In this document: positions 2,142 through 27,723 of the stretch, one piece after another
Numbering within the stretch: position 1 is the stretch's first letter
Layout of the letters: every line of letters begins with the position of its first letter
IMG/VR virus record: IMGVR_UViG_3300049008_000014
Span: 1 to 27,723 of that record
DNA from: a virus
DNA length: 27,723 bases
Strand: one strand, 5' to 3'
Made by a program: the position numbers and the translations under genes
Notes under the pieces: generated by a model
Told to the model about the DNA's origin: nothing
The model's database searches: none
What the model saw: the letters and a program-made list of their open reading frames with translations, nothing else

Positions 2142-3368
2142 TTACCATTTGCTGACGGTCGCCATCGGGATGACGGTCTGCGGTTTTACTGTATTTGCAC
2201 GCCGCACCGCCTCGCAAGCATACCTGAGCGCATCTATGACATGGTTCTTCTTGTCCTCCAGCACAGGAAGAATCTTGCCGGTCAATGGGTCAGTCTTATA
2301 GCTGTAAAGTGTCAACTCGTCAATCGTGTGCGTACAGCGAGGATGCACGACGATGGTGTAGTTCTTCAAAAACTCGATGCCTTCCTCTACCGACTTCGGA
2401 CCTTTGACCGCCGTCATGATTTTGGGGAAGCCGTTCCGCCGCATGTGGCTGATGGTCTCCGGCCTGGCGGAGTCGGCCACGATGGGCCATTTCTCGGCCT
2501 CTGGAACCTGCATGAACAGCTCTGGCGTGTTCACGATCTCGCAGCCCACCATGTAGGCTTCAAAGTCGATGTAGAGCGTACGCCCAATTATATGGCAGCG
2601 CACCAGTGTGGTCGGGTCAACGGAAAACCCCCAGTCGGCGCCGAGCCGGTGAATAGCGTCAGCCGGCGCGTCAAAATCCTCGATCCGCCAGTTCCTGAAC
2701 ACCCTCGACTCGCTGTTCTGTAAGTACTCGCCGCGCCATACATGCCGATATTTGTCCGGGTCTCGCCGTTTGTCGTACTCCATTTCGTCCTTGAGCACGG
2801 ACGGGAACCACGGGTTGTCGGCGTAGTTCACCTTGATGACGTTTGCATCCTTGGGCGGCGTCGGTCCGCGCAGGAGCAGGTCCACCGGATCGCTGGCCTG
2901 GCGAGGGTTCCACGTGAACCACAACTCGCTGCCAGGCTTGCGGATCGTTGGCCGGAGCAGGTCCAGGCTTGTCTGGCTCAGGCTTTGCGCCTCCTCGACC
3001 CAGGCGCGGTCGTAGCCTTCCAGAGACTTGATGCTGTCCGCCGTGTGGTTCTGCATACCCTGGAAGATGATTCTGCCGTCGGCCTTCTTGGACTTGATGA
3101 CCGCATCCTGAACCTCAAAGTATGCGCCAGCATTCATCTCCTGAATCTTCATCTCCAGCAGGCGCTTAACCGATTGATTCAAAGATTTCTGAATCTCGCG
3201 CACGCAAACGCTGGACTGCGATTGGTTCATGATATGTTCTTCAAGCATCATCTCGGCGAACATATGGGATTTGCCAGAACCTCGGCCGCCCCAGGCACCT
3301 TTGTAGCGGCTGGCCTCAAGCAGCGGGAGTGCCCATTCTGGGGTTTTGAGTTGAAGGGTTTTACCCAT
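2142..3368 (-). CDS. terL: Terminase large subunit (ATPase/nuclease packaging motor)
   Basis: Motor protein that pumps DNA into the procapsid through the portal and cuts the concatemer. The ATPase domain shows Walker A GGRGSGKS (residues 27-34), a Walker B with catalytic acids WVEEA (about 123-127) and a coupling motif FTWNP (151-155). The C-terminal RNase H-like nuclease shows three acidic motifs: GADWGFSVD (D245), VADSA (D299) and HVIDALRYA (D379). The 408-residue length fits the shorter PBSX/Terminase_3 type rather than P22 gp2 (499). The start overlaps the end of terS by 8 nt, which suggests coupled translation. All motifs needed for activity are present. Confidence 0.95.
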   Translation of the reverse strand: MGKTLQLKTPEWALPLLEASRYKGAWGGRGSGKSHMFAEMMLEEHIMNQSQSSVCVREIQKSLNQSVKRLLEMKIQEMNAGAYFEVQDAVIKSKKADGRIIFQGMQNHTADSIKSLEGYDRAWVEEAQSLSQTSLDLLRPTIRKPGSELWFTWNPRQASDPVDLLLRGPTPPKDANVIKVNYADNPWFPSVLKDEMEYDKRRDPDKYRHVWRGEYLQNSESRVFRNWRIEDFDAPADAIHRLGADWGFSVDPTTLVRCHIIGRTLYIDFEAYMVGCEIVNTPELFMQVPEAEKWPIVADSARPETISHMRRNGFPKIMTAVKGPKSVEEGIEFLKNYTIVVHPRCTHTIDELTLYSYKTDPLTGKILPVLEDKKNHVIDALRYACEAVRRANTVKPQTVIPMATVSKW

Positions 3369-3786
3369 TCTTGATTACTACGCGCTCAATTCTCGAAAAC
3401 AATAATGGGTTTTCAGAATCTCCAGATAACTCTAATTTATCTCCATATTTCTTTGGCGCCAATTTAGATAGTAGCCATTTTCTACTCTCTATTTGCAGCC
3501 TTTGCTTGTTGACTGCTCCAGAGTCTGTGGCTCCAGAGTCTGTGCTATTTACCGGCTCGTCGGCGATCAACAGAATCTCGTCGGCAATGCCGTCTATGAG
3601 TTCGTCTCGCGCACGCGTGTAGCGGTCAGCGAGCACAGCATCCCCATCGCACCACAACAAAAACGTCGGCCTGGCCACGCCAGCCTTCAGGCACGCCTTG
3701 CGCAGACTCAAGCCCTCCAGCGCCATGCCGGATAGCACTGTCTCGATTTGCTTGGCCTTGTCGGCCACTGTTGTTATTTTCGCCAT
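3361..3786 (-). CDS. terS: Terminase small subunit
   Basis: Predicted DNA-recognition subunit that chooses the packaging start and loads TerL. The N-terminal half reads as a helix-turn-helix of the small-terminase type (GLSLRKACLKAGVARPTFLL, residues about 24-43), followed by WCDGD and a helix with RYTRARDELIDGIADEI. This is a common arrangement in phage small terminases that precede a PBSX-type large subunit. The C-terminus is polar and likely contacts TerL. The call rests on the HTH plus position immediately before terL with an 8-nt overlap. The ribosome site is weak (a G-run about 10 nt before ATG). The upstream spacer carries a motif array that could be its binding site. Confidence 0.85.
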   Translation of the reverse strand: MAKITTVADKAKQIETVLSGMALEGLSLRKACLKAGVARPTFLLWCDGDAVLADRYTRARDELIDGIADEILLIADEPVNSTDSGATDSGAVNKQRLQIESRKWLLSKLAPKKYGDKLELSGDSENPLLFSRIERVVIKNG

Positions 3787-3892
3787 GTCTGACTAGCCCC
3801 CATCCCAAATTTTGCACAACTGCCTAAAAATTAAGCAGAACACCCAATCTAAGGGTTTTCCCTAACGGATACGCTTTTTTCGCACGATGTTC

Positions 3893-3999
3893 GGGTACAG
3901 CGGGTACACCCCTTAGGGGTGTGTACCCGGTTGTACCCCAAACACGTCTTTCGCCCGGGTACAACTGTACCCGCTTGTACCCGCTTGTACCCTGTACCC
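3893..3999. repeat. Nine-copy TGTACCC/GGGTACA motif array (candidate pac, iteron or operator)
   Basis: The 7-mer TGTACCC occurs nine times in 107 bases: as GGGTACA at 3893, 3902 and 3957 and as TGTACCC at 3922, 3932, 3966, 3976, 3986 and 3993 (start positions). The run 3966/3976/3986 is spaced exactly 10 bp with unit TGTACCCGCT, and 3922/3932 is also 10 bp apart, so these sites face the same side of the helix. Two copies form the perfect inverted repeat CGGGTACA-ac-TGTACCCG at 3956-3973. The array begins 2 nt after the primase-helicase stop and lies just upstream of terS. A TerS binding (pac) site or a replication iteron array would both look like this; the choice is inference. Confidence 0.8.
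3901..3929. terminator. GC-rich hairpin within the motif array
   Basis: CGGGTACACCCC, a 3-nt TTA loop and GGGGTGTGTACCCG form a strong stem with a two-base bulge. It could form in RNA of either direction and sits between the primase-helicase stop and terS. There is no U-run directly after it on the minus strand (the nearest A/T-run, at about 3875-3880, is over 20 nt further), so it is not a standard intrinsic terminator. It may attenuate transcription, or be a paired protein site in DNA. Confidence 0.35.
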
Positions 4000-4001
4000 G
4001 G

Positions 4002-5948
4002 TCAAAATCCGATCCCCAGCTCATAAATTCCGGGCTCCTCCTCGACCATCTCGCCGCGCTCCAGGAGCTCCACAACGGCCCTGGAGAACGCCTGCTTCTT
4101 GCTGTTGGCGGACTCCAGCTCGGACAGTTCATCAAACGCCTGCCGCCATTCCGACCTGGCGACCAGCCTGGCATTGAGCGCCTTGAACGCCTCCCAAGCC
4201 ACGTTGGCATTGGTGCTACGTAGCTTGCGCTTGGCGCTCTTCTCTGGCGCCCCGGCCTGCACCAGCACCGCGCTCGTCACCGGTTCTCCATCCTCATCAA
4301 ACCACCCAGGAATAATTACTTTCTCAAGCGTAGCATATAAGGTCGGCGCTAACTCGGCGTCCTTGCTCTTGCGCTGGATAATCTCCATCGGCGCCTCGCC
4401 CTTGGCCGGGACGATGCTGATCTCAATGTCCAGCGCACCGCGCCAAGCGCTCGATCCTCTGGCTCGATGCTGGGTCTCTTCAGAAACCCCAGTATGGTGG
4501 ACTAATATGATGGTGCAATTGAATTCCGCCATTAGCATGGCGCAGGCATCAAGCATGGCCTTGGCGTCTTGGGATGAATTCTCGTCACCGGAGTTGAAGC
4601 GGTGCAGAGTATCTATCACGATTGCGGCGGGCTTGATCGGCAACGCCCTGATGTGCTCGGAGACCTTGCGGTAGCCCTCGGGGGTGTCTAGGTCGCAGCC
4701 GCTCTTGCTGAGATACATATTAAGCGCATGACCATTACCATGGCGCTCTTTCCACGCCGCGATCCGGCTGCGCAGACCGTGGTGGCCCTCGCCCGCCAGA
4801 TAGACAATCGCACCTGGCGTGACCCGGCTGCCGAACCAATCCTGTTGGCCCTGGGCCATTCGCAGGCACCAGTCCAGAACGGTGAACGTCTTCCCGCCGC
4901 CGCTCGGGCCGTGGACCATGATGAGCGCGGCCTGCTGGATCCACCCTTTGACCATCCACTTGATTGGCGCAGGCTGGCGGCAGAACTCGTCCGCCGGCAT
5001 CAGCCAATCACTTACCGCTGGCTCAAGCAGCGCCGCCAGATCGTTGCCGGCCTGAACGTAATCATTGGCGTCCCCGGCCGCTGGCGGCATCACCGATCTG
5101 GCACCGTACTTGGCGCTCGCCTGCTCGGCATACCTTTGACCGACTCCAGACGCATCGTTGTCAGCCACGATCACCAAATCCTGCTGTGCGCCGAACCTCT
5201 CCCGAAGTGCGCCGGTGACTGGAACTAGATTACTGGCGCTGTACGCCACTGCGCAGGCTTTGCCGGTGGCTTGATGAATGGTAGCGGCAGTGGCAAAGCC
5301 CTCGGCGATGTAGATGGTTGATCCCGGCTCGCCGAGCATCCAGAACTTGCCGCCAGTTGCGCCGCCGGGGTGATACCGTTTCTCGCCATCGGCTGCAATG
5401 TACTGGACCGAGGCCAGATCACCTTCGGCACCGTACAACGGAACCATCAGCCGCCCATCGCCGGTGACCCTAGCGCCATTGGCTGCGATTCCCTTTCGCG
5501 CCAGATACGGATGATCGGCGCTCGCCGCACCGCCTGCTGTCCAGATGGCATCCACCGTGGTGGCAGCAACGGCCTGGCTGCGCTCCTGCTCTGCCTCCCT
5601 TGCCGCCTTGGCCTCGGCCATTCGCCGGGTGTGCGCCATCTCCTCGGCGATGGTGAGCTTCCTTCCCATCTCCGCCTGCCAAGCCTGCTCAATCCCTGCC
5701 CGCCAGCAGCCAAAGCGACCTGCCGGGACACCATCACCAAATGCCACGTACCAGCCCGGCTTGCTGTGGCCCGGTGAGCCCTTGGTCCCGGAGTTGAACC
5801 TGTGCAGCTTGCCGTCTAGATAGATCGCCTCTGGCGGCTCCAGACCCGCCTCAATCATTGCTTCCCGCAGCTGCTCGTCTGGCGGGTCTACCCTCTTGGG
5901 CTCGGGAAGCGCGTAGACGCCGCCAAAGATGCTAGTCAGGTCTGCCAT
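4002..5948 (-). CDS. TOPRIM primase / RepA-type helicase fusion
   Basis: Predicted replication protein combining a primase-type TOPRIM domain with a hexameric RecA-like (AAA_25/RepA) ATPase. The N-terminal part (to about 200) has one RFNSG and one GCWRAG segment typical of phage DNA-binding primase leaders. The TOPRIM domain follows with IAEGFATA (E216) and VADNDASG (D263, D265). The ATPase shows Walker A GPSGGGKT (347-354), AGEG at 385-388, Walker B AIVIDTLHRF (D446), LVHHTG (sensor-like, 482-487) and RGSSAWRGALD (about 497-507). I see no zinc-finger with four cysteines, so it may need a separate primase cofactor. The start is 7 nt past the stop of the PAPS-reductase-like gene. It lies in the same direction as the packaging genes, which is unusual for a replication gene. 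Confidence 0.88.
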   Translation of the reverse strand: MADLTSIFGGVYALPEPKRVDPPDEQLREAMIEAGLEPPEAIYLDGKLHRFNSGTKGSPGHSKPGWYVAFGDGVPAGRFGCWRAGIEQAWQAEMGRKLTIAEEMAHTRRMAEAKAAREAEQERSQAVAATTVDAIWTAGGAASADHPYLARKGIAANGARVTGDGRLMVPLYGAEGDLASVQYIAADGEKRYHPGGATGGKFWMLGEPGSTIYIAEGFATAATIHQATGKACAVAYSASNLVPVTGALRERFGAQQDLVIVADNDASGVGQRYAEQASAKYGARSVMPPAAGDANDYVQAGNDLAALLEPAVSDWLMPADEFCRQPAPIKWMVKGWIQQAALIMVHGPSGGGKTFTVLDWCLRMAQGQQDWFGSRVTPGAIVYLAGEGHHGLRSRIAAWKERHGNGHALNMYLSKSGCDLDTPEGYRKVSEHIRALPIKPAAIVIDTLHRFNSGDENSSQDAKAMLDACAMLMAEFNCTIILVHHTGVSEETQHRARGSSAWRGALDIEISIVPAKGEAPMEIIQRKSKDAELAPTLYATLEKVIIPGWFDEDGEPVTSAVLVQAGAPEKSAKRKLRSTNANVAWEAFKALNARLVARSEWRQAFDELSELESANSKKQAFSRAVVELLERGEMVEEEPGIYELGIGF

Positions 5949-5954
5949 AAATTC

Positions 5955-6821
5955 TCAATCTCCGCAGAAGCAGGCGATGGCTTCTTCATCGGTCACAAAA
6001 TCAATCTGTGCGCCGTCGTTGTGCAGCATGGCTGCATAGCTTGCTCGATCTGAGCGGAAGACTGCGCCGCTTGGCTTGGACGCCAACGACAACGCCTCCA
6101 TCTTGGCCCACCATACCGCACGGCTCGGCTTCTCGTGAATCAGGCTGGCCACCTGAGATGCAGGCTTCAAAAAGCACAAGTCGCAATTGCCCGCAAGCGT
6201 CCGACCGTTGTACGTTGGCAAGCCGAGATTGAAGGGTTGCGCCTCCCAAAATGCTCCAACATCTTGCACCGTTACGCCGGCATCGGCAAGTGGCAAGCAC
6301 ATGATTTCGTTCTTGCTTTCCGCGCTATGCCCGCGAGCTCGAATCTTTGAGACTCGGCGCTGCTCATCGGCCCGGATGCCTATGAACTGATCACACTCCA
6401 TGTCTTTTTGTGCCATGCCCTTTTGCTCCCAATGCACTCGCTGGAACTTGTGCATCGTTCTGATCTTGAGCTCTGATGTGCAAAACCGCGTCACGGGATT
6501 TGGCAAGTAGTTGCGCTTGCGAATGATGGCCTCAAACGGTTCGCCGTCCCGACTGGCTGTAGCAAAGTCCACCAGCGCATACCCCTGGGCGTCGCTTCTG
6601 TACTCCACCCAAGAAATGTGAACGCCCCAGTGCTCAGCGCAGTCCTGCACAAAGCGCAACGTCGCCTCTTCTTCTTTGCCGGTGTTGGCAAAACACACCA
6701 GCGCCTCATCTGGTAGCCCCCCCCCATTGCTCTGCAACACCCGCCAAAGCATGTAGGCGCTTGTGCGCCCGCCGCTAAAGCTAATGCAAGTCGGCCCATC
6801 AATCTTGAATGGATCACGCAT
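5955..6821 (-). CDS. PAPS reductase/ATP-pyrophosphatase-like phage protein
   Basis: A 288-residue protein of the adenine-nucleotide alpha-hydrolase superfamily. It carries the PP-loop SFSGGRTSAY (residues 14-23), a following CFANTGKE strand-loop, FCTSELKI, and Cys clusters GNCDLCFLKP and ACFCGD at the C-terminus. Phage members are usually annotated as PAPS reductase, and some relatives act in DNA sulfur or base modification, but the substrate here cannot be read from the sequence. The chosen ATG at 6821 lies at the expected point before the PP-loop and overlaps the end of the regulator gene by 8 nt. A longer open frame to 6986 would add 55 residues that read as out-of-frame regulator sequence, so I rejected it. 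Confidence 0.8.
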   Translation of the reverse strand: MRDPFKIDGPTCISFSGGRTSAYMLWRVLQSNGGGLPDEALVCFANTGKEEEATLRFVQDCAEHWGVHISWVEYRSDAQGYALVDFATASRDGEPFEAIIRKRNYLPNPVTRFCTSELKIRTMHKFQRVHWEQKGMAQKDMECDQFIGIRADEQRRVSKIRARGHSAESKNEIMCLPLADAGVTVQDVGAFWEAQPFNLGLPTYNGRTLAGNCDLCFLKPASQVASLIHEKPSRAVWWAKMEALSLASKPSGAVFRSDRASYAAMLHNDGAQIDFVTDEEAIACFCGD

Positions 6822-6996
6822 GGGGCGGAGCCTTGGAAAGATAGGTCGACAACCGCTGAATCGCGGTGATGCGGGGTCGCTTGCTGCGACCACGCTGGAG
6901 AGCGAGCACAGTACTGTAATGCAGCCCTGTCGCTGCCGCAACGACCCGAACCTTGCGGTCCTGCAGCCCAGCGATGATCTGCTCAATCGTCATCAT
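6814..6996 (-). CDS. Small Cro-like HTH regulator
   Basis: A 60-residue basic protein with a single helix-turn-helix (about residues 12-52: RKVRVVAAATGLHYSTVLAL then RITAIQRLSTYL), the size and layout of Cro/YdaS-type phage repressors. It is the first gene of the leftward block and faces the divergent control region, where such proteins normally bind. The start at 6996 is set by AGGAG 8 nt upstream; an adjacent ATG at 6993 has worse spacing. The open frame extends further to 7047, but that part translates as an unlikely Phe-rich leader read from the promoter region. The exact target and whether it represses one or both directions are inference. Confidence 0.75.
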   Translation of the reverse strand: MMTIEQIIAGLQDRKVRVVAAATGLHYSTVLALQRGRSKRPRITAIQRLSTYLSKAPPHA

Positions 6997-7125
6997 AAAG
7001 CGTACTCCTAAAAAAAAGTTGGTGAAGATCGAAAAAAAGTGTACCACAACTTGAAAAGATGGTGTAGGATGCTATTCATGCACTGAACGGATTTCCCGAC
7101 GAGTGCTGACACAGAAGGAAACGAA
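6997..7125. promoter_or_regulatory. Divergent control region between leftward and rightward blocks
   Basis: The only divergent intergenic region in the window. It is AT-rich with A-runs at 7010-7017 and 7031-7038. It contains an imperfect inverted repeat: AAGTTGGTG at 7016-7024 and CCACAACTT at 7044-7052 (7 of 9 matching positions), a plausible operator for the adjacent Cro-like protein. Leftward initiation must occur here, but I find no good -35/-10 pair for it. Confidence 0.6.
7051..7078 (+). promoter_or_regulatory. Candidate sigma-70 promoter for the rightward block
   Basis: TTGAAA (7051-7056) and TATTCA (7073-7078) are separated by 16 bp and lie about 50 bp before the first rightward ATG. 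The -35 overlaps one arm of the inverted repeat at 7044-7052, as expected for a repressor-controlled promoter. It is a pattern match only, with a moderate -10. Confidence 0.35.
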
Positions 7126-7347
7126 ATGACCAAGACCCTGACCTGGAACACCATCCGCGCAATCGGCAAACAAGACAGCGCAGGACGCTGGACCCCGAGC
7201 GCCGAAGTAGCCGAGTATTTCAGCAACATCCGCACCCCCAGCCGCGCCTGGCCGAACAGCATGGCCAAGGCCGCGCAGACCGCCAAGTTTGCGAGCTGGC
7301 TGACCGCCAACCGTCCCGAGATTGCCGCTAAGTTGCTGGCGAACTGA
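7126..7347 (+). CDS. Small unknown protein, first gene of rightward block
   Basis: A 73-residue, mildly basic protein without a family I recognise. It reads as a compact alpha-helical protein (TWNTIRAIGKQDSAGRWTPS, then FSNIRTPSRAWP, then Ala/Lys-rich helices). It has a clear ribosome site (AAGGAAA, about 5 nt before ATG). It is followed after 11 nt by the Sak4-like ATPase, so it is probably part of the recombination module or an early regulator. No cysteines, signal peptide or membrane segment. Confidence 0.75.
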   Translation: MTKTLTWNTIRAIGKQDSAGRWTPSAEVAEYFSNIRTPSRAWPNSMAKAAQTAKFASWLTANRPEIAAKLLAN

Positions 7348-7358
7348 AAGCTACCAAC

Positions 7359-16469: not shown

Positions 16470-16735
16470 CAGATCATCCTAGCAAGGAGAGGCACCGCCC
16501 CACCGGCGCAGGTTGCTAGGGCATCAAGCCATTCTACGCCATGGGTGGGTGTTAGGCCGGCCCTGATGGCTCGCTGGTTGGAGAGCCAGTCGAGCGCCTC
16601 CTTGCCCACTGCTGCGGCCACCACGAGGCCGTAGGCTGCGTCAGGCCGGCGTAGGATGGCCAGCGCCAGCAGGAAGATCAGCGCGCCGTAGATGGCGTGG
16701 TTGGCCTTATCTTGCGGGAGCGAAGGCATACCCAT
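16469..16735 (-). CDS. Small polytopic membrane protein
   Basis: An 88-residue protein with two or three hydrophobic segments (AIYGALIFLLALAIL, then GLVVAAAVGKEALDW and a weaker ATCAGGAVPLLARMI). Conserved-looking polar points are DKANHAIYG, KEALDWLSN and HGVEWLDALA. Such proteins occur in phages near tail or lysis genes with no proven role. ATG at 16735 forms TGATG with the lectin gene stop; a GTG one codon earlier is possible. Confidence 0.72.
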   Translation of the reverse strand: MGMPSLPQDKANHAIYGALIFLLALAILRRPDAAYGLVVAAAVGKEALDWLSNQRAIRAGLTPTHGVEWLDALATCAGGAVPLLARMI

Positions 16736-18123
16736 CACGGCCCCGAGTTCGGGAACGCAGCAGTCGGCGGGGTGAACGTGGTCCCACTAGGATAGCGGCA
16801 GATGCCCTTCGTGAAGCGGAAGTCGTCTATGTATCCGTTGAAGTATGGAGTAATAGGGGCAGACCCAACATTACCAATAACCATAGGGTTAGCATTAGTA
16901 TCTGCTGTTAATCCAGTAACGCTTACTGTCCCATTTTGTACGCCATTGATGTATTGGCGGTTTGTATTCCCGTCTCTAACAAAGGCAATATGATACCAAG
17001 TGTTAATAGCTATAGCGCCAGCAGAACTAGTGCAATTTATATTTCCGCCGCTACGAAACGTGCTTGTCATTACCCCCGCATTAGCCCACATGTAGAAGTT
17101 AAAATTAAAAGTTCCGTCGTAATCCCCGGCAAAATATCCGTTGGCTGTAGCTGATGCAAAGTTAACCCAACATTCAATAGTGAAGTCGCTACTACCCAAC
17201 GTAAGGGCAGACGTTTTACGAGTCGCTAGGTAGTCTGTAACTGTACCGCCGAACCTCAAAGCCCCAGTGCCATACTTAAACACGCTGGTGCTGATCTGAG
17301 CGTCGCCCACCGTCTCAAGGTTATTGAGCATGGTGTTGTCAAAGATCGCCCCGTTGCTCATGCCCAGCAGCAGTGCAGTGTTCGTGACTGCGGTCAGTGG
17401 CGCTGTGGGGGGAGTGAACGTCGTTGTGTAAAGAGCGGTGCCTTTAACCACACGAAGATTTGATATGTAACCAATGACACTAGACGGGCTGTATAAAGGG
17501 GAACTTCCTATCTGCGGTACTGGCGTGTCAGAAAAATTATTCGCTTTTGTAAATGTGGCGCTTACCACGCCATTAGAAAATAACCGAACTGTTGTTCCGC
17601 TTCTAGTAACAGCAACATGGTTCCAAACATTGTAGTTAAGAACAGTGGAGCCTAAATTAAAGCTGCCATCAGTATAGAAATTTAACTGATACCCTACACC
17701 AGTCGGATTCATGTTAACCACAAAACCTGTGCTTGTTGCGCCAGTTGATCTTAACTCAATAAGCACATCATTATTTGCATTAACAAGAGGTGTATTTACC
17801 CAACATTCAATAGTAAAGTCACCAGTGCCCATAGCAAGCGCAACATTGCTAGGAACAGTAAGATAATCCCCCGTCCCATCAAAGTACCCAGACCCACCGT
17901 TAGTAGCAACAGAGTAGGGGTAGGTAGAGACGAACGGATTGAACGAGCCTTGGGTCGTGTTACCGTTGCGGGTGACTGTGAAGTTGTTGGTGCTACCGTC
18001 TAGGAACGTGTTGTTCTGTGCGGCGTTGGTCCCATCTCCGTGCAGGAGCATGGAGACGTTGGCCCAGTAGGGGTCGGTAATCCTACCCAGCCGGGTTAAA
18101 AACGAGTTGAGTGCTGCAAACAT
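16735..18123 (-). CDS. Tail fibre-associated protein with two LamG lectin domains
   Basis: A 462-residue protein of two concanavalin A-like (LamG_3) domains, about residues 24-245 and 248-455. The repeats share the signatures GTGDFTIECWVN and SSDFTIECWVN, a NHVAVTR / YHIAFVR strand and closing YISNLRVVKGTALY / YIDDFRFTKGICRY. FNPF and DYLTVPS segments before domain 1 are frequent in phage tail proteins. Probably a sugar-binding adhesin on the tail. Overlaps the upstream fibre gene by a TAATG junction. Base composition is noticeably AT-richer than the neighbouring genes, suggesting separate acquisition. Confidence 0.85.
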   Translation of the reverse strand: MFAALNSFLTRLGRITDPYWANVSMLLHGDGTNAAQNNTFLDGSTNNFTVTRNGNTTQGSFNPFVSTYPYSVATNGGSGYFDGTGDYLTVPSNVALAMGTGDFTIECWVNTPLVNANNDVLIELRSTGATSTGFVVNMNPTGVGYQLNFYTDGSFNLGSTVLNYNVWNHVAVTRSGTTVRLFSNGVVSATFTKANNFSDTPVPQIGSSPLYSPSSVIGYISNLRVVKGTALYTTTFTPPTAPLTAVTNTALLLGMSNGAIFDNTMLNNLETVGDAQISTSVFKYGTGALRFGGTVTDYLATRKTSALTLGSSDFTIECWVNFASATANGYFAGDYDGTFNFNFYMWANAGVMTSTFRSGGNINCTSSAGAIAINTWYHIAFVRDGNTNRQYINGVQNGTVSVTGLTADTNANPMVIGNVGSAPITPYFNGYIDDFRFTKGICRYPSGTTFTPPTAAFPNSGP

Positions 18124-23640: not shown

Positions 23641-25211
23641 TAGCTGCCCCCACGAATGATTGCATCGGCCTGGCTCCTGATGCTGGTTGTTGGAGCGGCA
23701 GCCGGCTGTCCAGCAACTGGGATTTGCCCTCTATTTGCCGCTGCAACTTCCGCCGGCGTGCCTGTTGGAATTTGAGCCTGCGGGGTTTGATACCTCTTCG
23801 CAATTTCACTTGATACGCGAACGGTGAAGTCTGCGAATGTTTCGCCAGCCTTTGCCGAAAGATCGCCAGCAATGAACGCGCTTGGCGCCCTGCCGAGCGA
23901 GCCCTTGTTTTGTGACATCCAGTCAACTTTTGCGCTTTGCACCGATGCGTCCAAGTCCTGCATTTTTGCCATGCCACGCAAGAATGAAGATATGACCTTG
24001 GGGTCGGAGGTGTCGGACGGGAACCCAGATAGAACCATCTGAATATCTTTATCGGTTGCCGGCCCTGGCGGCAGACTCTGGACAGCTGCCGAGGTGCGTA
24101 GGCGTGTAAATTCTTGGCGCAACTCGCTGACTGCGCCTTCGCTGCCTGTGGATTTTTTAAGCCATTCATTGAATGAGCCCAGACGGCCCCAAGACGTGCC
24201 AATATCATTAATGCGATTGGACAGCGAATTGAGTTGCTCTGCTTGTTGCTTGGATGCAGAAGCAGCAACTGCGGCTTTATTTATTTCAACTTTTGCGGCG
24301 TCTGGAATGGCAACCGCAAGATCGGCAATCTTGGCAAGTGTAAGATTAACATTTGCCTGCGTAGTTGCTTGATCTAATTTAAGTTTTGCAGCCCTGTCAT
24401 TTATTTGAGACAGAAGATTTTTTACATTCCAATTTTCAGTGGTTATTTTTGACTGATTGAGCTGATCTGCAAACTTTGCATCTGATGCGGCCTTAATTGC
24501 ATTTGATTGAGCAGTTGACAGATTAGACACTGCCAATGGTTTAGCAAATTCAGCGGCAACGCCTGCCGTCAGTGCATCCGCTTCCGCTTTTGCAGCAGCT
24601 GCTATAGCTTGGTTTAGCTCTGCTGGCGCTTTGGCCTCCAGCCTACCGGTAGACAATGTCTTGTCAACGTTCTCTAGAATTTCCTTGCCGCCAGGCATCA
24701 TGGCCATCATGATGCCGATTGTGTTTTGTGCGCCAGTTGGGTTTACGCCAATCAGCTTCAAGTATGTTTCTGTGGCTTTTGCCTTTGGCTCATTGCCGCT
24801 GTTTCTGTGTGCATCAATTTGATCTTGCAACAACTGTTTTGCAATCTCAGGCTGCCCCGCTTTGAGCGCTGAATATACTTGCCCTGCCTGTGACAATGTA
24901 TTTTGATTCTGAACGGTTGTCATCTCCCCGGCAATTTTCAATACATTGTCGGCTTGATCTTTTGGCAGTAGGAAAGATGCTTGAGTAAGATCGCTGGCTG
25001 TTGCATTTTTGTCCGCAAGCAATGCCTGGACTTTTGCTTGAGCATCCATCGCATTCTTGCGAGCCGTCTCTTTTGCCTGGGCCTCGGCTTGCTTGGCCTG
25101 CACCTCTGCCCCGGCAGCGCCAAGTTTGAACCCGCCCAGTGCTGCCTCAAATGGGCTCTGCACATCAATAGAGTAATTGATCGGCGGTTGGAATGGATTG
25201 ATGCCTGCCAT
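23640..25211 (-). CDS. Ejection protein, P22 gp20-like position
   Basis: A 523-residue Ala/Gln/Lys-rich, mostly helical protein, middle of the three presumed ejection proteins; P22 gp20 is 471 residues. The N-terminus NPFQPPINYSIDVQSPFEAA is followed by a long coiled coil (EVQAKQAEAQAKETARKNAM) and repeated Ala-rich helices. The C-terminus is Pro/Ala-rich. AAAGGA 6 nt before the ATG at 25211 fixes the start; the open frame continues upstream to 25400 through the gp7-like gene in another frame. Released into the host periplasm in relatives; here inferred. Confidence 0.72.
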   Translation of the reverse strand: MAGINPFQPPINYSIDVQSPFEAALGGFKLGAAGAEVQAKQAEAQAKETARKNAMDAQAKVQALLADKNATASDLTQASFLLPKDQADNVLKIAGEMTTVQNQNTLSQAGQVYSALKAGQPEIAKQLLQDQIDAHRNSGNEPKAKATETYLKLIGVNPTGAQNTIGIMMAMMPGGKEILENVDKTLSTGRLEAKAPAELNQAIAAAAKAEADALTAGVAAEFAKPLAVSNLSTAQSNAIKAASDAKFADQLNQSKITTENWNVKNLLSQINDRAAKLKLDQATTQANVNLTLAKIADLAVAIPDAAKVEINKAAVAASASKQQAEQLNSLSNRINDIGTSWGRLGSFNEWLKKSTGSEGAVSELRQEFTRLRTSAAVQSLPPGPATDKDIQMVLSGFPSDTSDPKVISSFLRGMAKMQDLDASVQSAKVDWMSQNKGSLGRAPSAFIAGDLSAKAGETFADFTVRVSSEIAKRYQTPQAQIPTGTPAEVAAANRGQIPVAGQPAAAPTTSIRSQADAIIRGGS

Positions 25212-27073: not shown

Positions 27074-27723
27074 TTATTGCTCGGTTTGAGTGACGGCAAG
27101 GATGACGGCTGGCGCTGCTGGGGCAAAGGCGGTAGCCGCTATGGTTGCAATGCTGACGTTGGTATTGTCGGCTGCATACATCACTTCAATAAAGTCACCA
27201 GCAAGCAAGGACGCAACTTCATTTAGTGTTACAACCAGATAGCCATTGTTCAGCGTAATGGATGCAACTCTAGCTGAATTGGCCAAGTTAGTTGTTCCAT
27301 TCAATCGCAACCAAACCCAAATAGATTTCTGAGATGAATTGGTTGATGTAATCTGCACCGAGCAAGCAATGTTGTACAGGCCGGCTTGGGTAACAATAAT
27401 TTGCGAAGTTGTTCCGCCAATAGAAATGCCATTGGCAATTTGTGTATTTGTGAATAATATTTCATAGGCAGTGTTGATTACGGCAGGGCTTTGGCTGTCG
27501 AGCTTGGTGAACTCTCCGTAATAAATCTGCTGTTGAATAGTTGGCCGGACAAAAATGACGCCAATGGTAGCGCTTACGTGTAGCACGGCGGCAATAGGCA
27601 CCACGTTATTGGGGGCGGTTGGCTTGACGTTTGTAAGCGCACCGGCCACCGTTGGCGAGGCGTACAAAATGTCGCCCACCGAAAACGTGCTTGTATCTAC
27701 GTCCCGAACGTAGCCAAAAGTAG
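27074..27723 (-). CDS. Virion surface protein with C1q/TNF-like C-terminus, 5' end outside window
   Basis: The frame stays open to the right edge (TFGYVRDVDTSTFSVGDILY at 27720-27661), so the true start lies outside and the GTG at 27679 is not the start. The visible front matches the common tail-fibre and head-fibre segment YVRDVDTSTFSVGD...GALTNVKP. The end (YEILFTNTQIANGISI then TQAGLYNIACSVQITS, SIWVWLRLNGTT and GDFIEVMYAADN) resembles C1q/TNF-like trimer-forming jelly rolls found in phage fibres. Likely a trimeric surface or attachment protein. At least 216 residues lie here. Confidence 0.78.
   Translation of the reverse strand, partial: TFGYVRDVDTSTFSVGDILYASPTVAGALTNVKPTAPNNVVPIAAVLHVSATIGVIFVRPTIQQQIYYGEFTKLDSQSPAVINTAYEILFTNTQIANGISIGGTTSQIIVTQAGLYNIACSVQITSTNSSQKSIWVWLRLNGTTNLANSARVASITLNNGYLVVTLNEVASLLAGDFIEVMYAADNTNVSIATIAATAFAPAAPAVILAVTQTEQ

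Follow-up and report, generated by a model that had tools for sequence, protein, structure and literature searches.

Organization of the locus

The DNA analysed here (the window) is a virus record of 27.7 kb. In order of transcription, its leftward genes code for an XRE-like regulator, a PAPS-reductase-like protein and a primase-helicase; an array of short repeats follows, and then the genes for TerS (Sf6-like), TerL and a P22-like portal protein. The rightward genes include those for Sak4, an SSB-like protein, a Cas4-type exonuclease and a helicase. The genes for TerS (3361-3786) and for the small XRE-like regulator (6814-7047), both on the minus strand, are neighbours of the array.

The PAPS-reductase-like gene, located at 5955-6986 between the XRE-like and primase-helicase genes, is missing in many relatives (e.g. 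L050 and L069), in which these two genes abut. A lower GC content (0.47-0.48 versus about 0.58) was observed at 17001-18000, within an ORF of 462 aa (16735-18123), and at 24001-25000; both stretches are possible recent acquisitions.

The primase-helicase (4002-5948, minus strand; 648 aa) was assigned by domain and structure matches, and combines a Toprim primase domain (residues ~210-300, 5049-5321, minus strand; Toprim_3 and Toprim_4 matches) with an AAA_25 helicase domain of the RepA/T7 gp4-like type (residues 319-489, 4482-4994, minus strand; domain search). Its predicted model resembles T7 gp4, Twinkle and RSF1010 RepA (PDB 1g8y, 1nlf, 1olo). The C-terminal domain (residues 571-648, 4005-4238, minus strand) is a predicted winged helix and, as it changes together with the repeat motif, the proposed reader of the array. 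In both models residues ~579-644 fold as helix-helix-helix-strand-strand, with pLDDT mostly 84-91. The matches listed contained many winged helices at Z 8.6-10.3, ORC and Cdc6 domains among them, which supports the winged-helix fold class and not any particular relative; the P4 origin-binding domain was not among these listed matches. A Foldseek search with the C-terminal domain alone gave no match under E = 0.001, and a Pfam search with three C-terminal domains gave no family above the cut-off.

An array of TGTACCC repeats directly after the primase-helicase gene

Exact-word counting on both strands identified nine copies of TGTACCC at 3893-3999, three on the minus strand (3893, 3902 and 3957) and six on the plus strand (3922, 3932, 3966, 3976, 3986 and 3993). 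Elsewhere in the window the word occurs only at 1231 and 23392, and the array is the only one of its kind there; the total of 11, against an expectation of 1.58, was reached in none of the shuffles. For the 107-bp segment itself 0.006 copies are expected (Poisson P(>=9) ~3e-26), which bears out the statement of the earlier note that the clustering is far beyond chance. That note also described copies one helical turn apart. The start-to-start spacings are 9, 20, 10, 25, 9, 10, 10 and 7 bp, and the helical phasing is therefore partial, because exactly 10 bp is found in only three of the eight. The inverted repeat described in the note, perfect over 8 bp and with a spacer of 2 bp, was confirmed (CGGGTACA-AC-TGTACCCG), and a perfect 17-bp palindrome inside the array, ACACCCCTTAGGGGTGT (3906-3922), is an element that had been missed.

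The nine copies form two blocks. Read in the sense of the helicase gene (minus strand), the helicase-proximal block (3957-3999) consists of four direct copies, GGGTACA, followed by one inverted copy, TGTACCC; the distal block (3893-3938) consists of two direct copies, the palindrome and two inverted copies. The array lies, as noted earlier, in the gap upstream of terS, which extends over 215 bp from the primase-helicase stop (4002) to the TerS start (3786). It is the primase-helicase stop codon, and not terS, that the array abuts: it begins 2 bp past this stop, and its opposite end and the terS start are 106 bp apart.

The non-coding stretch between array and terS (3787-3892) is richer in A+T (GC 0.44 versus about 0.59 nearby) and is a possible unwinding region; a relaxed DnaA-box-like site, a weak match, was found at 3810-3818. 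The single-strand fold of the whole segment had z = -4.5. An intrinsic terminator at the palindrome was discarded, as no T run follows it; two terminator-like matches were found in 3300-4400, both away from the palindrome and at a frequency near chance.

Distribution of the arrays among related loci

Homologous loci from among the matches listed were made non-redundant by C-terminal sequence, leaving 88, among which some clades are over-represented. At least five exact copies of one 7-mer were present within 300 bp past the helicase stop in 57 of these 88 loci, whereas in the controls, Markov shuffles and coding segments of 300 bp, no 7-mer occurred more than 3 times. The first copy is located 2-40 bp beyond the stop in most loci. 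TGTACCC arrays adjoin primase-helicases 46-98% identical to that of the window, including those of contigs with unrelated terminases, and helicase homologues without TGTACCC mostly carry an array of another 7-8 bp word in the same place. The same arrangement is seen in Salicola CGphi29 (GGGGACA), Idiomarinaceae 1N2-2 (CGGTACA, 8 copies) and Alteromonas XX1924 (TGAACCA, 8 copies). Multiple short direct repeats beside a putative initiator gene, as in an iteron-type origin, are found at these loci.

The linkage has exceptions. In L034 the array is 1.7 kb away from the helicase gene, and in the L238-L270 clade, with primase-helicases about 67% identical to that of the window, mostly no array was found after the helicase stop and genes follow directly; the origin of this clade may lie elsewhere or work differently.

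TGTACCC arrays were also observed 38 bp and 9 bp past the stops of unrelated primase-helicases, of the VapE-like/prim-pol type and phrog_35358 (L021:1772-1930 and L041:8347-8574); iterons adjacent to the 3' end may therefore extend beyond the primase-helicase family of the window. In another phage group (L066:8496-8731, L087:4876-5059, L109:5589-5709, L010 and L030) TGTACCC clusters are mixed with TGTGAGCGG words and lie just upstream of a gene of 153 aa and terL; in L066 the primase gene is about 2 kb away.

A layout conserved while the repeat word changes

The motif varies among subgroups (TGTACCC, TGTACCG, GGGTAACA, AACGGAAC, AGGGGGC, TGTCCCA, TTGTCCAC and others), and the layout is common to them despite this change: direct repeats come first, and after them a palindrome that has CTWWAG as its core and inverted repeats on its flanks. 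On the helicase strand the typical order is direct copies, usually an inverted copy, a spacer (often with GGGGCAA), one or two direct copies, the palindrome, inverted copies and often GATGCGG. GGGGCAA was seen between the two iteron blocks in 20 of 51 loci, and GATGCGG after the second block, ~105-175 bp past the helicase stop, in 13 of 51.

In relatives the CTWWAG core of the palindrome is kept and the stem is changed on both sides. The fourth pair outside the core played no part in the selection of the palindromes and was complementary in 23 of the 32 distinct ones, and at the second pair all four Watson-Crick forms were seen; the symmetry is therefore retained while the sequence varies.

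DnaA boxes and base composition

In the 330 bp beside the arrays TTATNCACA boxes occur at 1.34 per kb, compared with 0.039 per kb elsewhere, a 34-fold difference. They were found beside the arrays in 19 of 66 loci, many of those related. In L159, L171, L199, L304, L305 and L068 the arrays have canonical DnaA boxes, TTATCCACA, on one side or on both. The clade of the window carries none at its arrays; no canonical box was found near the array of the window, where the sole strict match is at 27449. DnaA may be required by some relatives and not by others. The cumulative GC skew of the window showed no turning point at 3.9 kb, in a record that is a fragment and in which gene orientation confounds the skew.

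Exchange of the repeats together with the C-terminal domain

Loci L226-L232 differ from the window in both the repeat and the end of the primase-helicase. Identity to the window is 96-98% over helicase residues 1-570 and 52.6-53.8% over residues 571-648, and for L226 the DNA identity falls from ~94% to 54-66% at the boundary of the C-terminal domain. All nine iterons read TGTACCG (C to G) in an unchanged layout, the helicase-proximal block being built in the same way with CGGTACA. A helix segment, SKKQAF, is identical in the window and L226, which is consistent with the six bases common to both motifs, GGTACA. Across this change of motif the Sak4 proteins are 93-100% identical. The XRE-like proteins are 88-99% identical under either TGTACCC or TGTACCG, and XRE is therefore not the reader of the array.

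The terminase did not follow the motif. L057, L099, L219 and L223 carry TerL (and TerS, where compared) 97-99% identical to those of L226-L232, yet have the TGTACCC motif together with an 88%-identical C-terminal domain; the window and L069 have TGTACCC with TerS/TerL other than the L226 type. A second clade (L171, L286, L287 and L288) has helicase cores 95-99% identical and last 85 aa only 37-92% identical, and its motifs are GGTAACA (L171 and L286), AACGGAA (L287) and AGGGGGC (L288). The TerS proteins of L286 and L287 are 100% identical, and their arrays differ; L171 and L286 share the motif with TerS ~40% identical, a value taken from the comparison with L287, which has the same TerS as L286.

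Over 45 loci, motif similarity was correlated with C-terminal identity after control for core identity (partial r = 0.44, permutation p = 0.0005), and with core identity when C-terminal identity was removed (partial r = 0.36). TGTACCC is also paired with C-terminal domains only ~20% identical to that of the window, for which convergence or a conserved contact is needed. By sequence comparison, the repeat word is specific to the putative DNA-binding domain of the initiator and does not follow TerS, since one TerS can be accompanied by different motifs and one motif by different TerS. It appears that repeats and reader domain are exchanged as a pair among related phages.

Possible functions of the array

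The earlier note had favoured a pac/cos site, bound by TerS and starting packaging. The array end lies 106 bp upstream of the terS start, terS is located downstream of the array in many relatives too, and in L066 and L087 the TGTACCC cluster lies just upstream of genes preceding terL, ~2 kb from the primase gene in L066. The note had also named the absence of such motifs beside terS in close relatives as a refutation, and no TGTACCC cluster was found at TerS homologues of 48-63% identity. Moreover, TerS/TerL proteins 97-99% identical to each other are found beside TGTACCC in some phages and TGTACCG in others, TGTACCC also accompanies unrelated TerS/TerL, and an identical TerS occurs with GGTAACA or AACGGAA; the distance of terS, where found, from the helicase stop varies from about 200 to 3000 bp, whereas the arrays are fixed at the stop. 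The packaging reading is rejected because motif and terminase dissociate in two clades, and we give it a very slim chance.

Slightly less improbable, and still highly unlikely, is an operator, bound by the XRE-like protein or by the C-terminal domain as a repressor and controlling the packaging and structural genes. The array does lie between the replication and packaging genes of the leftward set, and in iteron replicons origin binding and autoregulation are often coupled. The XRE-like protein is ruled out as reader, since its identity reaches 99% where the motif has switched completely. TGTACCC is absent from the divergent control region (7048-7358), a scan for sigma-70 types gave no promoter-like site at 3300-4400, and the genes directly after the array in XX1924 and 1N2-2 are not annotated as packaging genes. 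The reading we hold least probable of all is a partition or incompatibility site, or another accessory helicase-binding site that is not the point of initiation. Iteron sets can serve as copy-number or incompatibility elements, as does P4 crr, and a single array in the window would suit such a role; against it, DnaA boxes and the palindrome accompany arrays in relatives, and no partition genes were recognised among the window proteins scanned.

A proposed iteron origin read by the primase-helicase

We conclude that the array is very probably the core of a phage iteron replication origin bound by the primase-helicase's own C-terminal domain. An iteron array read by the adjacent primase-helicase had been listed earlier as an alternative, and the joint swaps of C-terminal domain and array, together with the linkage to the helicase gene, argue strongly for it. 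The pairing of domain and array is what sequence comparison shows; direct binding, origin activity, strand opening and a hairpin role are our inference.

Several copies of the primase-helicase would bind the nine iterons through their winged-helix domains, and the bound copies would concentrate and load the RepA-like helicase ring at the array. The ring would open the duplex close to the iterons and to the neighbouring A+T-richer stretch, and the Toprim domain would prime. A hairpin extruded from the palindrome between iterons may aid loading or priming. This division of labour would resemble that of RSF1010 RepC, RepA and RepB' with the ssi hairpins.

We are somewhat inclined to regard this arrangement as an undescribed class of tailed-phage replicon, in which one Toprim/RepA-type protein would be initiator, helicase and primase, with an exchangeable origin reader and iterons directly 3' of its gene; domain and array would be traded as a specificity cassette, with at least 10 distinct iteron sequences; the trade may be driven by phages or satellites that compete or interfere with one another over origin recognition. 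In the literature searched, outside which most subscription journals lie, we found no system that combines a Toprim/RepA-type helicase with a swappable C-terminal reader and iterons adjacent to the 3' end of its gene. No description of the iterons or origin was found in the Alteromonas phage literature examined, and an earlier mention for PB15, XX1924, CGphi29 or 1N2-2 is possible.

For most of the tailed phages that are known only from environmental DNA, the replication origin is unmapped. A repeated 7-8 bp word just past the stop codon of this type of primase-helicase would give a rule for finding them. The natural pairs, in which the enzyme core is the same and the reader domain and all repeats are changed, are material for studying how winged helices choose their DNA words. 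Origin-directed interference is documented for PLE and ICP1 (PMC8263062). If the iteron type decides cross-use or interference in replication among phages or satellites, it would be a testable driver of phage diversity.

Comparison with known systems

Among phage initiators, lambda O likewise binds iterons that lie within its own gene or beside it; it differs in having neither helicase nor primase activity and in recruiting the host DnaB through P, and its iterons are inside the O gene. In P4 alpha the winged-helix domain is C-terminal and the helicase is of the SF3 type, whereas that of the window protein is AAA_25, RepA/T7 gp4-like. P4 alpha is similar in that one protein combines a Toprim primase, matched here by Toprim_3 and Toprim_4, a helicase and a winged-helix domain that binds origin repeats (PMC4234260); in the window protein the last of these is a predicted winged helix with a proposed role. 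The array of the window differs from the P4 arrangement in lying directly 3' of the gene, and the 27.7-kb record yielded no counterpart of crr as a second array.

The RepC/RepA/RepB' system of RSF1010 (IncQ), with its oriV, has iterons, a hexameric helicase of the RepA type, as in the window protein, a primase and hairpins (PMC4234260). There the functions belong to three separate proteins, whereas in the window protein they are apparently fused, with a primase of the Toprim type; no RepC-like or RepB' protein was recognised among the ten window proteins scanned. ORF904 of pRN1 is another multidomain replication protein with a winged helix at its C-terminus; the origin follows its gene immediately and contains a stem-loop of non-conserved sequence (PMC4234260). 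Unlike the window, pRN1 lacks iterons, and its primase and helicase are of the archaeo-eukaryotic prim-pol and SF3 types, respectively.

In RepA of the Vibrio cholerae PLE, the DNA-binding domain and the origin iterons covary and are exchanged as a module on a conserved backbone, an exchange that was tested experimentally (PMC8263062). The PLE domain is an N-terminal RepA_N with iterons of ~30 bp, whereas that of the window is at the C-terminus of a primase-helicase with iterons of 7-8 bp. P4 alpha, RSF1010, pRN1 and PLE RepA each have part of the arrangement of the window.
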